The notes under the pieces are model-generated. The model was not told where the DNA came from. It saw only the letters and a list, made by a program, of their open reading frames with translations, and searched no databases. From NCBI GenBank assembly GCA_945865415.1, contig CAMBFY010000005.1:1-32076 (forward strand): 32,076 nucleotides of DNA. Direction: 5' to 3'. Positions 5,730-11,752 of the stretch are shown one piece after another. The stretch's first letter is position 1; the number at the start of each line of letters is the position of its first letter. The DNA is from Sphingobacterium thalpophilum. Its GTDB lineage: Bacteria; Bacteroidota; Bacteroidia; Sphingobacteriales; Sphingobacteriaceae. The translations under genes and the position numbers were made by a program.

Positions 5730-7034
5730 TTACCCAAGCAAATAAGCCTTAAATCCTTCAAATTCATTTCCAAGACTTGTAAAAACCCTTTTCTTGCCTT
5801 CCAGCCCCTGTACCTGTTCAGGTACAGCTGTTTTCGATGCCATATCAGCAGGAAAAATATCAGGAAATTTGCAAGGATGAGCTGTAGCTAAAAATACACC
5901 TGCAATCTCATCAGAGTTATGATTATTCATCCAGCTACGTAAGGCCAGCCAGGCAATAGCTGTATGCGGACACATGATATAGCCATGCTCCTTATATACA
6001 AGCTTTATGGCTTTAAGGGTTTCATCATCATTGAAACTACTGGCACTGATCAAATTTTTAATTAAGCTGCAGTCCCCATTAAAAAGATCCATAATTCTAA
6101 CCCAATTACTCGGATCACCAACATCCATTGCATTTGACCGGGTCTGCACACTTGGCTTTGCTTGATAAACTCCGGTTTTAAAAAAAACTGGAACCGTATC
6201 ATTCGCATTGGTTGCAGCAAGAAATGCCCTAACGGGCAGTCCCATTTTCCAGGCAAGTAAACCCGCTCCAATATTACCAAAATTACCGCTTGGGACAGAA
6301 AATACCACTTCTTTATACCCCATCCGACGAATCTGTGCATAAGCATTAAAATAGTAAAATGTTTGTGGGATCAATCTTGAAATATTAATGGAATTGGCAG
6401 AGGTGAGACGAAATTTCTCTTTCAGTTCAGGATCATTAAAAGCCTGCTTTACTATGGCCTGACAATCATCAAAGGTGCCATCAATCTCAATTGCTCTAAT
6501 ATTTTCTCCATTGGTAGTTAACTGAAGTTCCTGTATCGGACTTACCTTGCCTTTAGGAAATAAAATAGTTACTCTTACATTCGGCACCCCCAGGAAACCC
6601 AGTGCCACAGCTCCACCTGTATCGCCCGAAGTTGCCACGAGTACATCCAATTGCTTCTCGCCCGTCTGCAAAAAATAACTCATCACCCGGCTCATAAATC
6701 TGGCACCGAAATCCTTGAATGCTAAAGAGGGGCCATGGAAAAGTTCAAGAACATTTATGCTCTTAGAAATTTCAATAAGCGGTGCATCGAAATTAATCGC
6801 ATCATCAATAATCGACCTAAGAGCTGCTTCGGGAATTGCATCATTAAGAATTGATTTAGATACCTGGAAAGCAATATCTGGCAAGGTATAGTTGTGCAGA
6901 TCAGCAATAAATTCCGAATCCAGCACCGGGATATTTACCGGCATATATAAACCCTTGTCTGAAGGTAAACTATTGAAAACTCCATCCTTAAAAGGAACTC
7001 TCAAAGCTTTATTATTGGTACTGTATAAGATCAT
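5730..7034 (-). CDS. thrC: threonine synthase
   Basis: 434 aa. N-terminus YSTNNKALRVPFKDGVFNSLPSDKGLYMP, FHGPSLAFKDFGARFM and ATSGDTGGAVALGF PLP motifs. Directly follows thrB. Confidence 0.97.
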   Translation of the reverse strand: MILYSTNNKALRVPFKDGVFNSLPSDKGLYMPVNIPVLDSEFIADLHNYTLPDIAFQVSKSILNDAIPEAALRSIIDDAINFDAPLIEISKSINVLELFHGPSLAFKDFGARFMSRVMSYFLQTGEKQLDVLVATSGDTGGAVALGFLGVPNVRVTILFPKGKVSPIQELQLTTNGENIRAIEIDGTFDDCQAIVKQAFNDPELKEKFRLTSANSINISRLIPQTFYYFNAYAQIRRMGYKEVVFSVPSGNFGNIGAGLLAWKMGLPVRAFLAATNANDTVPVFFKTGVYQAKPSVQTRSNAMDVGDPSNWVRIMDLFNGDCSLIKNLISASSFNDDETLKAIKLVYKEHGYIMCPHTAIAWLALRSWMNNHNSDEIAGVFLATAHPCKFPDIFPADMASKTAVPEQVQGLEGKKRVFTSLGNEFEGFKAYLLG

Positions 7035-7969
7035 TAATCTAAAATTATTGGTCCCTGAGCATTAATCGGCGACCGGTATGCAATACTTTCTGTATCCAGC
7101 CATCTGAAATGTGCCTGCAATTTTTCATTGATCCGCCGCGCATCTTCATCATTCCTGGTAAATGTAAAAACCGATGGCCCAGAACCAGAAATGCCAAAGC
7201 TCAAAGCTCCATTTTCCATGGCAATTTCTCTTAATCTGTAAAAATCAGGAATCAGAATCGATCTGACTGGCTCAACAATCACATCCTTCATACTCCGGGC
7301 AATCAGATCTATATTTTTGGTATACAAACCACTAACCAATCCAGCTACATTCCCCCATTGAACCACTGCGTCTTTCAATAATATTTTACTTCTTATAATT
7401 TGACGTGCATCTCGTGTTGGAACGTCCACCTGCGGAAAAACAATTGAGCAATAAAGTTCTTCAGGAAACGGTAGCTGGATAATATCCAAGGGATCATAGC
7501 TGCGTATAAGAACAAAGCCCCCAAGCAGCGCGGGAGCCACATTATCTGCATGTCCGTAGCCGCAAGCCAATTCTTCTCCTTTCATGGCAAACGGCACAAG
7601 TTCCATTTTAGATAGGGGGCTATCCATCAGGGTATTAATAGCAAACAAACCTGCAACTGTACTCGCAGAACTTGATCCTAATCCGCTACCAATCGGCATC
7701 TTTTTATTCAATTCGATCTGAACTCCCACATCGGATTTACCAATATGATTAAGATAATGCTGCACACTCACACTAACCGTGTTCTTTGCAGGATCATAGG
7801 GCAGACGTCCATCATCTCCGCTTATTTTGGTGATTATTACGCCGGGTTCATCTTTGAGGCTCATAATTACTTCATCACCAGGTGCATTTACTGCAAATCC
7901 CAATACATCATAACCACAAACTACATTCGCAACTGTTGCAGGTGCAAAAACTTTTACAGATCTATTCAT
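7034..7969 (-). CDS. thrB: homoserine kinase (GHMP family)
   Basis: 311 aa with VFAPATVANVVCGYDVLGFAV, MPIGSGLGSSSAS and FGISGSGPSVF motifs. Position between thrA and thrC. Confidence 0.97.
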   Translation of the reverse strand: MNRSVKVFAPATVANVVCGYDVLGFAVNAPGDEVIMSLKDEPGVIITKISGDDGRLPYDPAKNTVSVSVQHYLNHIGKSDVGVQIELNKKMPIGSGLGSSSASTVAGLFAINTLMDSPLSKMELVPFAMKGEELACGYGHADNVAPALLGGFVLIRSYDPLDIIQLPFPEELYCSIVFPQVDVPTRDARQIIRSKILLKDAVVQWGNVAGLVSGLYTKNIDLIARSMKDVIVEPVRSILIPDFYRLREIAMENGALSFGISGSGPSVFTFTRNDEDARRINEKLQAHFRWLDTESIAYRSPINAQGPIILD

Positions 7970-8039: not shown

Positions 8040-10496
8040 TCAGAATTTGTTAGCACCTACATGCACAATATCTGCAAACACTCCTGCTGCAGTAACCTCA
8101 GCTCCTGCACCCGGACCTTTAACAACCATTGGCCTTTCTTTGTAGCGATCAGTTATAAATGATATGATATTATCGCTTCCTGACAAGGCATAAAAAGGAT
8201 GTGTTTCGTCAACCATCTGAAGTCCGATATTAACCTTGCCATTCTCAAGCTTACCAATATACCTGAGCACTTTCTTGCCATTCTCAGCCTGCTTTTTCAT
8301 GCTTTCAAAAAAGCTATTCTCGGCCAGTAAAGTTTTATAGAAATCACCCACCGTATCAGCACCTAAACATGATTTTGGAAGCATACTTTCAATCTCTACG
8401 TCTGAAGCTTCAAGTTCATATCCGGCATCACGGGCAAGTATCAGCATCTTTCTCATAAAATCAGTGCCACGAAGGTCATCACGAGGATCGGGTTCAGTGT
8501 AGCCTTTCTCCTGAGCCTGCTTCACAATATCATGGAATGTTATATCACCTTTGTAGTTGTTAAAAATGTACGAAATAGTCCCGGAAAGTATTGCTTCAAT
8601 ACTTATAATCCGATCCCCGCTAATCATCAGATCTTTCAAGGTCTTTACAATAGGAAGACCCGCCCCTACATTGGTTTCATAGAAGAAATCTACCCCATGC
8701 AATCTTGCAGTATCCCTAAACAGTTTGTACTGTTCGAATGAAGAAGAATTCCCAATCTTATTACAGGTTACAATAGAAATATTTGAGCTGAATATCTCCT
8801 GATAATGTTCTATAGGTTTTAAACTCGCTGTATTATCTGCAAAAACACAGTTGGGAAGATTCATTGATTGCATCCTTTCTACAAAAAGAGAAAGGTCAGC
8901 CTGCTCACCTGTATTTTGCAATGTATCCTGCCAGTTTTCAAGTTCAATACCTTCTGCATCGAAAATCATCTTGCGGGTATTACCAATACCAACAACTTTG
9001 ATCTGTATTCCGTTATGCTTTTGAATAAAGTCTTTGTGTTCCAGTAATTGTTTGAATAAAGTAGTTCCAATATTTCCGGTACCCAGACAAAACACGTGCA
9101 AAGTTTTATTTAATTCAACAAAGAAAGCATCATGCACAGCGTTAAGACCTTTATTTAGGTCTTCCCTTGATATCACAACAGAAATATTATATTCTGAAGA
9201 TCCCTGAGCAATTGCCCTCACATTGATTCCGTTACGTCCCAATGAATGAAAAAGCTTACCTGAAATGCCGGGAGTTTGTTTCATATTTTCACCGACAATA
9301 GCGAGAACTGAAAGACCCTGTTCAAAAACAGGTGATTCGATCTTTTTGGCGAGCAACTCAAGTTCAAATTCCTGCTCAATCAATTGTTGTGCTCTGACCG
9401 CATCAGCAGGATGGATTGCAAAAGTGATACTGTGTTCTGAAGAAGATTGAGTAATAAGAATAACATTGATCTGTTCACGGGCAAGCAATGAAAAGAGTCG
9501 ACCGCTAAAACCCGCTTTACCAACCATTCCGCTCCCTTCCAGATTGATGATACTGATATCATTAATTGATGAAATTCCTTTTATGGCAAGGCTAGAATTT
9601 TCACAATCATGTCTGATGACGGAACCAGGAAACTCAGGCTCAAATGTATTCCGGATTACGATCGGAATTTTTTTCATAAACGCAGGTATCATCGTTGGAG
9701 GGTATATCACCTTGGCTCCAAAAAAAGATAACTCCATTGCTTCTGTGTAAGAAAGTTCAGGCAATGAAAAGGCCTTTTTAACCATTCTGGGATCTGCAGT
9801 CATCATTCCGTTCACATCAGTCCAGATCTCTATCTCCTCAGCATTCAGGGCTGATCCAAAGATGGCAGCTGTATAATCACTTCCTCCTCTACCTAGGGTA
9901 GTGATTCTACCCTCACTATTACTTGCAATGAAGCCGGTAACGAACAGCATTTTACCTGGATTATTATTGTAAAGATCTCTGATCAGGATCTCCGTAAGTT
10001 CCATATTCACACGTGCCTGTCCAAAAGTGCTGTCAGTTTTAATAAGATCTGCTGCATTGACGTAAATATCATCATCCGACTTCTGTCCGGCGATTTTACT
10101 GATCATAAATGTTGAACAACGCTCACCATAACTTAAAACCAAATCCCGGGTACGCGGAGTCAGTTCACGAAGAATTAAAACACCTTGCAAAAGATCTTCC
10201 AGTTCATTGAAGAGAATTCGAAGTTTTGTAAATACCGGATTTTGTTTTGGTACGGCTAATAATTCCTTAATCACCTCAAAATGACGTTCTTCCAGCTCCT
10301 TCAATTCATGGCTGAAAGTTCCACCCTGTGCAGCCTTATCAGCCATTGCCGACAAAAGATTCGTGACCCCGCTCATCGCTGAAAGAACAATAACCGGATT
10401 ACCTATCTGATTTTGTTCCTTTTCTATGATTTGTAATAACTTACTGATCGACTCAACCGATCCTACTGAGGTACCCCCGAACTTTAAAATTTTCAT
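8040..10496 (-). CDS. thrA: bifunctional aspartate kinase / homoserine dehydrogenase I
   Basis: Aspartokinase (MKILKFGGTSVGS, TLGRGGSDYTAA), two ACT-like regions and homoserine dehydrogenase (GTGNIGTTL, TVGAGLP-like TNVGAGLP, SGTISYIFN). The supplied ORF starts at an upstream TTG (10631) that overlaps a terminator and leader ORF. The correct start is ATG at 10496 (MKILKFGG). Confidence 0.97.
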   Translation of the reverse strand: MKILKFGGTSVGSVESISKLLQIIEKEQNQIGNPVIVLSAMSGVTNLLSAMADKAAQGGTFSHELKELEERHFEVIKELLAVPKQNPVFTKLRILFNELEDLLQGVLILRELTPRTRDLVLSYGERCSTFMISKIAGQKSDDDIYVNAADLIKTDSTFGQARVNMELTEILIRDLYNNNPGKMLFVTGFIASNSEGRITTLGRGGSDYTAAIFGSALNAEEIEIWTDVNGMMTADPRMVKKAFSLPELSYTEAMELSFFGAKVIYPPTMIPAFMKKIPIVIRNTFEPEFPGSVIRHDCENSSLAIKGISSINDISIINLEGSGMVGKAGFSGRLFSLLAREQINVILITQSSSEHSITFAIHPADAVRAQQLIEQEFELELLAKKIESPVFEQGLSVLAIVGENMKQTPGISGKLFHSLGRNGINVRAIAQGSSEYNISVVISREDLNKGLNAVHDAFFVELNKTLHVFCLGTGNIGTTLFKQLLEHKDFIQKHNGIQIKVVGIGNTRKMIFDAEGIELENWQDTLQNTGEQADLSLFVERMQSMNLPNCVFADNTASLKPIEHYQEIFSSNISIVTCNKIGNSSSFEQYKLFRDTARLHGVDFFYETNVGAGLPIVKTLKDLMISGDRIISIEAILSGTISYIFNNYKGDITFHDIVKQAQEKGYTEPDPRDDLRGTDFMRKMLILARDAGYELEASDVEIESMLPKSCLGADTVGDFYKTLLAENSFFESMKKQAENGKKVLRYIGKLENGKVNIGLQMVDETHPFYALSGSDNIISFITDRYKERPMVVKGPGAGAEVTAAGVFADIVHVGANKF

Positions 10497-10550
10497 TAGT
10501 GTATACTTATTTACATCCCCGCATGTGCGGAATTTCTTGAATTTTTGTAA

Positions 10551-10588
10551 AAAAAAACGCCTTCCCCTTTGTCGGAGGAAGGCGTTTT
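10551..10588 (-). terminator. leader attenuator (Rho-independent terminator) upstream of thrA
   Basis: On the minus strand: AAAACGCCTTCC-TCCGACAAAGG-GGAAGGCGTTTT followed by a T-run (plus-strand poly-A at 10550-10557). It lies between the Thr-rich leader ORF and thrA. Confidence 0.88.
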
Positions 10589-10605
10589 GATGTTTTATGC
10601 TAAAT

Positions 10606-10680
10606 TTACACCATACATTTACCTTCCCCAAGCATCAGCGTGGTAGTGATTGTTGTGGTGGTATAAAATGTTCTTATCAT
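10606..10680 (-). CDS. threonine-rich leader peptide MIRTFYTTTTITTTLMLGEGKCMV of the thr operon
   Basis: ATG ATA AGA ACA TTT TAT ACC ACC ACA ACA ATC ACT ACC ACG CTG ATG CTT GGG GAA GGT AAA TGT ATG GTG TAA. 24 aa with 8 Thr and 2 Ile, immediately upstream of the terminator and thrA. Too short for the supplied ORF track. Confidence 0.88.
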   Translation of the reverse strand: MIRTFYTTTTITTTLMLGEGKCMV

Positions 10681-10717
10681 TTTTTTACTGTGTAGTAAAT
10701 AACGGATTTAATTTTTG

Positions 10718-10739
10718 AATTCACAAATTCTTGTGAATT
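10718..10739. repeat. inverted repeat AATTCACAA-ATTC-TTGTGAATT in the divergent thrA/rsgA intergenic region
   Basis: Perfect 9-bp arms with a 4-nt spacer, upstream of the thr leader. Confidence 0.6.
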
Positions 10740-10831: not shown

Positions 10832-11752
10832 ATGCAAGGACTAGTTATAAAATCAACAGGAAGCTGGTATGAAGTTCAAACCGATGAGGGAAGAGCCATT
10901 AAATGCCGTATTAAGGGTAAGTTTCGAACCCTTGATATTAAAACAACCAATCCTGTTGCTGTAGGAGATCGTGTAACAATTCAGCCTGAACCCGATCAGG
11001 ATACGGGGCTTATTACCGACCTTGAGCCAAGAAAAAATTATATTATCCGAAAGTCAGTTAACCTCTCAAAGCAGGCACAGATTATTGCGGCAAATTTAGA
11101 TCAGGCTTTTCTTATTGTCACTCTGGCCTCTCCACGTACTTCACTGGGATTTATTGACCGGTTTCTTGTAACAGCTGAGGCCTATGATATACCTGCCAAA
11201 TTAATATTTAATAAACTCGACTTGTTTAGCGCTGAAGGTCTTGATATTTTAGATGACTACCAGTCAATTTATGAGCAGGCAGGCTACCCCTGTTACAGTG
11301 TTTCCGCATTAAAGGCAACAAATCTTGATCAGTTAAGAGGGCTTTTGAAAAATAAAGTAACGCTGGTCAGTGGGCATTCAGGTGTTGGAAAATCGACCCT
11401 AATTAATGCATTATTACCAGGCCATGAACTTAAAACTGGTGAGATCTCTGATTGGAGTGATAAAGGAAAACACACCACAACTTTTGCTGAGATGTTCAGA
11501 CTGCCTTTTGGCGGATACCTGATTGATACACCCGGAATACGTGAACTCGGTGTCTTCGATATTGAGAAGCAGGTACTCGGTCGATTATTTCCAGAAATCA
11601 GAAGGTTAATGGATGATTGCCGATTCAATAATTGCAGGCATCTCAACGAACCTGGATGCACTGTTATTGAGGCTCTGGAATCAGGTGAGTTAGAACCATC
11701 CAGATACGACAGCTACTTAAGTATTTACAATAATAACGACACCAGGGCATAA
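10832..11752 (+). CDS. rsgA: ribosome small subunit-dependent GTPase A
   Basis: 306 aa with circularly permuted GTPase motifs (NKLD, GHSGVGKSTLIN, DTPG), GKHTTT, and a C-terminal Cys/His zinc-binding region (CRFNNCRHLNEPGC). Confidence 0.97.
   Translation: MQGLVIKSTGSWYEVQTDEGRAIKCRIKGKFRTLDIKTTNPVAVGDRVTIQPEPDQDTGLITDLEPRKNYIIRKSVNLSKQAQIIAANLDQAFLIVTLASPRTSLGFIDRFLVTAEAYDIPAKLIFNKLDLFSAEGLDILDDYQSIYEQAGYPCYSVSALKATNLDQLRGLLKNKVTLVSGHSGVGKSTLINALLPGHELKTGEISDWSDKGKHTTTFAEMFRLPFGGYLIDTPGIRELGVFDIEKQVLGRLFPEIRRLMDDCRFNNCRHLNEPGCTVIEALESGELEPSRYDSYLSIYNNNDTRA

Follow-up and report, generated by a model that had tools for sequence, protein, structure and literature searches.

The window, which is the whole stretch of 32,076 nucleotides of Sphingobacterium thalpophilum DNA that was analyzed, contains on its minus strand the genes thrA, thrB, and thrC, preceded by a leader region in which a short Thr-rich ORF is followed by an intrinsic terminator. 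The features of the locus, from the upstream neighbor to the end of thrC, are as follows.

10832..11752, plus strand: rsgA, the upstream neighbor of the thr leader, divergent from thrABC.
10696..10727, minus strand: promoter-like element just ahead of the leader ORF, TTTG (10727..10724), 20 bp, and GTTATTTA (10703..10696).
10606..10680, minus strand: leader ORF, MIRTFYTTTTITTTLMLGEGKCMV and stop, 24 codons with 8 Thr and 2 Ile.
10671..10669, minus strand: eighth Thr codon of the leader ORF (codon table).
10639..10662, minus strand: regulatory codons ACC ACC ACA ACA ATC ACT ACC ACG, 7 Thr and 1 Ile (codon table).
10605..10667, minus strand: protector hairpin in the minimum-energy fold, its outer helix formed by UUUAUACCA (10667..10659) with UGGUGUAAA (10613..10605).
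10622..10629, minus strand: region 2, the antiterminator 5' strand GGGGAAGG, codons for G-E-G, duplicating the terminator 3' arm.
10575..10582, minus strand: region 3, CCTTCCTC, the 3' strand of the antiterminator, which also forms the core of the terminator 5' arm (pairing and co-variation).
10549..10588, minus strand: intrinsic terminator, consisting of the 3:4 hairpin AAAACGCCTTCCTCCGACAAAGGGGAAGGCG (10588..10558) and nine T/U (10557..10549), identified from fold energy and covariation.
8040..10496, minus strand: thrA, bifunctional aspartate kinase/homoserine dehydrogenase I (NF006959, 1025.7 bits versus a cut-off of 726).
7034..7969, minus strand: thrB, homoserine kinase (NF002288 and TIGR00191, both above cut-off).
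5730..7034, minus strand: thrC, threonine synthase (TIGR00260, above cut-off).

The genes downstream of the leader are thus those of the threonine pathway itself. An ORF of 863 amino acids with a TTG start (10631..8040) runs across the leader structure, as an earlier note on this DNA had pointed out, but homologues begin at the ATG at 10496, so that the TTG extension is merely a mechanical open frame. The leader stop codon is 109 nt from this ATG, and the intrinsic terminator lies between them, an arrangement that is difficult to reconcile with a leader ORF acting through translational coupling or reinitiation at thrA, in a manner independent of termination. Bacteroidota often have short ORFs near genes, but their spacing peaks at 11-14 bp (PMC4833913), and such coupling is considered extremely improbable here.

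The leader ORF was described in the earlier note as a minus-strand mini-ORF of 24 codons (10680..10606), 8 of them for Thr and 2 for Ile, and it is present as described. A leader ORF rich in codons for the amino acid that the operon produces is a defining feature of ribosome-mediated attenuators, and at 8 of 24 codons the Thr content is the highest among the 444 ATG-initiated ORFs 12-40 codons long that the window holds on its two strands, counting nested starts, the runner-up having 5 Thr. When the 335-nt intergenic region is shuffled with its dinucleotide composition kept, an ORF with at least 8 Thr arises in only 2 of 5000 cases. Across five close relatives, the Thr run shows no first-position, one second-position, and three third-position codon changes, suggesting that variation in the leader Thr codons falls chiefly on third positions. 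The Pfam profile Leader_Thr (PF08254) does not match the window peptide and gives a score of 12.8 bits, below its cut-off of 25, with the leader peptide of locus L026. The peptides of some relatives nevertheless resemble that of E. coli; an example is L026, with MNRNTTITTTITTG.. where E. coli has MKRISTTITTTITITTG...

The terminator, an intrinsic terminator between the leader ORF and the first gene being a further feature of the attenuator class, has a predicted fold energy of -22.5 kcal/mol (z = -6.4) that is equaled by none of 200 shuffles, and 9 of its 13 consensus pairs carry double-sided changes among 31 relatives. The hairpin was correctly located in the earlier note, which placed hairpin and U-run at 10588..10551, but the end given there is two bases short because the T run reaches 10549. 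From a plain sequence alignment, RNAalifold recovers the terminator alone in its consensus, since columns cannot be matched up across the leader part. The antiterminator proposed in the same note, 10629..10622 with 10582..10575, does form 8 bp including one G-U, with a ninth pair (U-G) possible, and it co-varies with the terminator. The pairing between the leader and the terminator arm has an energy of -15.8 kcal/mol compared with a shuffle mean of -8.3 and is equaled by none of 300 shuffles. Pairing of region 2 with region 3 is the predicted minimum-energy fold before region 4 has been transcribed, whereas the terminator is more stable once complete; the finished RNA therefore favors the terminator and switching must be kinetic, as is usual in known attenuators.

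In three lineages with an altered terminator, the antiterminator strand within the ORF is altered to match: L023 (GAGGGAAG with CTTCTCTC), L027 and its relatives L041 and L043 (CGGGGC with GTCCCG), and L025 (TGGGG with CCCCA). Region 2 pairs with the terminator 5' arm in the relatives as well; the weakest cases are L022, L025, L027, and L028, with 5-6 contiguous bp that are equaled by 19-85 of 300 shuffles. It was also observed that the antiterminator strand, which is GGAGGAAG in many relatives and lies inside the leader ORF (10622-10629 in the window), resembles a Shine-Dalgarno sequence; this may be tolerated because Bacteroidota hardly use Shine-Dalgarno pairing.

The protector (1:2) hairpin, which is typical of the attenuator class and was absent from the earlier note, has an outer helix that joins the start of the Thr run to the end of the ORF and inner pairs between Thr/Ile codons and both ends of region 2. 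Examples of co-variation in this helix include UAUACCA:UGGUGUA and UAUUACAACAU:AUGUUGUAAUA, among others. In swap tests, from which shared ancestry is not fully removed, the antiterminator strands pair more strongly with their own partner than with swapped ones (-14.9 versus -13.5 kcal/mol, p = 0.0002), as do the protector strands of 22 leaders (-12.4 versus -9.8), for which the result was weak with loosely placed segments (p = 0.049) and strengthened to p = 0.00005 after the segments had been re-anchored on the ORF. Co-variation, the swap test, and the geometry all indicate an antiterminator that follows directly on the regulatory codons and is mutually exclusive with the terminator.

Conservation in relatives is the strongest evidence that the leader element is real. 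The loci compared, with thrA at least 66% identical, comprise 29 from the nearest-relative search (the window locus included) and 8 more of the same family, and in 37 of 37 a Thr/Ile-rich mini-ORF and then a terminator hairpin lie upstream of thrA, where the terminators of L023 and L042 were placed by eye after the automatic rule had missed both. The leader peptides differ among relatives in length, sequence, and codons but keep their share of Thr and Ile, with a median of 7 Thr and a median Thr plus Ile content of 46% of residues. The conservation of the Thr-codon run and terminator on which the earlier note had made its proposal depend is therefore present, although the element is missing from three genomes of the family with a distant thrA (G023, G026, and G027; 47-49% identity). 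These data also bear on the view that the hairpin serves as an ordinary 3' terminator or marks where a small RNA ends, the Thr-rich ORF being incidental. The strength of the hairpin with its nine U and the weak matches of Rfam models of unrelated terminator-containing RNAs fit that view, but no minus-strand gene ends at the site, the ORF, its Thr codons, and the terminator-matching strand are kept in all 37 loci, and the divergent orientation of rsgA leaves the terminator no other gene to serve, so that it can act only on thrABC transcription; that view is consequently very improbable.

Sequence comparison shows the ORF and its bias toward Thr and Ile, three competing helices that co-vary, and the nature of the controlled genes; the leader is in all likelihood a ribosome-mediated transcription attenuator, adjusting thrABC to the level of charged tRNA-Thr and probably of tRNA-Ile also. 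The attenuation reading of the earlier note is in this respect supported by tests at the level of sequence. The start site, the stalling, the switching, and the threonine response are the predicted parts of the mechanism. Around its P-site codon, a ribosome is known to cover roughly 15 nt in either direction. Between the last Thr codon (10641..10639) and region 2 there are 9 nt, so that stalling within the run would keep region 2 more or less free, and the leader stop codon (10608..10606) is 13 nt past region 2, so that a ribosome at this position covers the RNA from about 10626 onward, including most of region 2. When threonine is scarce, the ribosome would stall in the Thr run and occupy the protector 5' strand, leaving region 2 (10629..10622) free to pair with region 3 (10582..10575) once the latter is transcribed; the terminator would then not form and thrABC would be transcribed. 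When threonine is plentiful, a ribosome that has reached the stop codon would mask the greater part of region 2 (roughly 5 of its 8 nt), allowing the 3:4 terminator to form. Because the element is kept in nearly all close relatives, thrABC is very probably shut off at high threonine, on the principle known from E. coli.

The promoter-like box, whose form in the window is TTTG-N20-TTACTTTA, predicts a transcription start some 10-20 nt upstream of the leader ORF. The element resembles the Bacteroidota promoter, for which PMC9723704 gives TAnnTTTG as the -7 consensus. The box, as TTG-N18-21-[TG][TA].[CTA]TT[TA][AG], occurs in 30 of 36 family loci compared with 1.3 expected in shuffles, but it should be noted that the pattern was tuned on the same loci and that these are related, making the count supportive rather than proof. 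A transcription start downstream of the leader ORF had been named in the earlier note as an observation that would speak against attenuation; the position of the box, upstream in those 30 loci, suggests otherwise.

At curated cut-offs, a search of the whole window with Rfam identified nothing besides a SAM riboswitch (RF00162, 59.3 bits). This riboswitch is at 191-291 on the plus strand, upstream of a large metH-like ORF at 427. Its presence elsewhere in the window, together with the frequent location of riboswitches in structured 5' leaders of Bacteroidota, could be taken to suggest that the thr leader is regulated by another sensor, a riboswitch, T-box, or RNA-binding protein, with the peptide secondary. 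However, no Rfam family reaches its cut-off in the thr leader, structure there is limited to the ORF and the terminator, and it is the Thr/Ile content of the peptide that is conserved, codon change being synonymous, which leaves regulation by such a sensor very little probability. As regards the Thr_leader family itself (RF00506), the window leader scores 31.3 bits, below the gathering threshold of 55, and this threshold is reached in none of 61 family genomes. Across these genomes the model gives many matches of 33-51 bits away from thrA and scores 35-51 bits at many places, mostly not at the thr leader; these are probably terminator-like hairpins, and the E-values of the model are misleading in these genomes. 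Homology to the E. coli Thr_leader, considered on the basis of the sub-threshold score, was rejected as unproven since the model scores equally or higher at many other sites.

The comparison also exposed a contrast between the attenuator of the window's family and the thr leaders of other families of the same class, in which thrA often follows a Thr-rich ORF whose end folds around its own stop codon. With the same rule, an intrinsic terminator was found in 28 of 29 leaders of the window's family but only as one weak candidate among 25 from other families. In a second type of leader (L061, L064, L070, L074, L075, L079, L081, L090, and the Flavobacterium loci L097-L216), the peptide ends in ..TTTP or ..TTPLG before the stop, the stop codon sits in the loop of a hairpin, ACCCC-UUA-GGGGU, which is followed by CAUAUAAU, and thrA is about 50-200 nt downstream with no intrinsic terminator. 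A third type, from another family (L030, L052, L058, L063, L066, and L072), has the end ..ACG GGG TAA CCC GT, forming an ACGGGG-UAA-CCCGU hairpin, and likewise no terminator. The stop-codon-hairpin pattern occurs in at least 120 stretches from GTDB genomes, mostly Flavobacterium, almost all with a Thr-rich peptide, and among the matches listed the called downstream gene is nearly always thrA. There is about an even chance that Thr-rich leader peptides control thrA in several Bacteroidota families through at least two output modules on one sensor, a terminator/antiterminator switch in the window's family and a small stop-codon hairpin in others, Flavobacterium among them. The terminator-less type would need another mode of action (Rho, mRNA decay, or translation, for instance), and these leaders, including those of Flavobacterium, are more novel than the attenuator of the window.

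Attenuators have previously been sought by comparative surveys. The abstract of one of these, Vitreschak et al. 2004 (FEMS Microbiol Lett 234:357), reportedly mentions attenuator candidates in Bacteroidetes/Chlorobi. The window leader shares its principle with the systems of such surveys (Vitreschak et al. 2004; PMC2965389), and the authors of the latter (Naville and Gautheret 2010) state that they were aware of leader-peptide systems only in Proteobacteria and Actinobacteria. Leader-peptide attenuation has been proposed from transcriptome data in Flavobacterium psychrophilum, upstream of amino-acid biosynthesis operons (PMC9723704, whose main text names neither threonine nor thrA), and in Bacteroides thetaiotaomicron, for short ORFs in long 5' UTRs (PMC7366714, whose main text does not name threonine). 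The mechanism has thus been proposed in Bacteroidota before, and the thr leader is an added case; it is less novel than the earlier note suggests, since leader-peptide attenuation ahead of amino-acid operons had been reported in a species of the phylum (PMC9723704). The papers searched include none that names a Bacteroidota thr leader. The Flavobacterium thrA leader differs in build from that of the window, with no intrinsic terminator. The Bacteroid-trp motif (RF01692) is also a Bacteroidota cis-regulatory RNA in Rfam, listed in a table of PMC2864571, and its name suggests a trp operon leader; it matches neither the window leader (E up to 10) nor 20 related leaders, other families included (E up to 0.5).

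The closest counterpart is E. coli thrL, in which a Thr/Ile-rich leader also precedes thrABC with a fused aspartate kinase-homoserine dehydrogenase, and protector, antiterminator, and terminator helices are present, with an antiterminator strand that copies the terminator 3' arm. The sequences of the helices are unrelated, and the proposal in the earlier note of thrL logic in a distant phylum with unrelated sequence agrees with the presence of all three helix types. The window leader is very probably a case of classical ribosome-mediated attenuation, similar to that of E. coli thrL but not belonging to Rfam Thr_leader by its cut-off, and it offers a specific, easily tested element that Rfam lacks at cut-off. 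If confirmed, it would imply a coupling of transcription and translation tight enough that folding can be steered by a stalled ribosome, in a phylum largely devoid of Shine-Dalgarno initiation, and it extends the textbook logic of thrL to an entire family of Bacteroidota, with evidence of selection on each helix.
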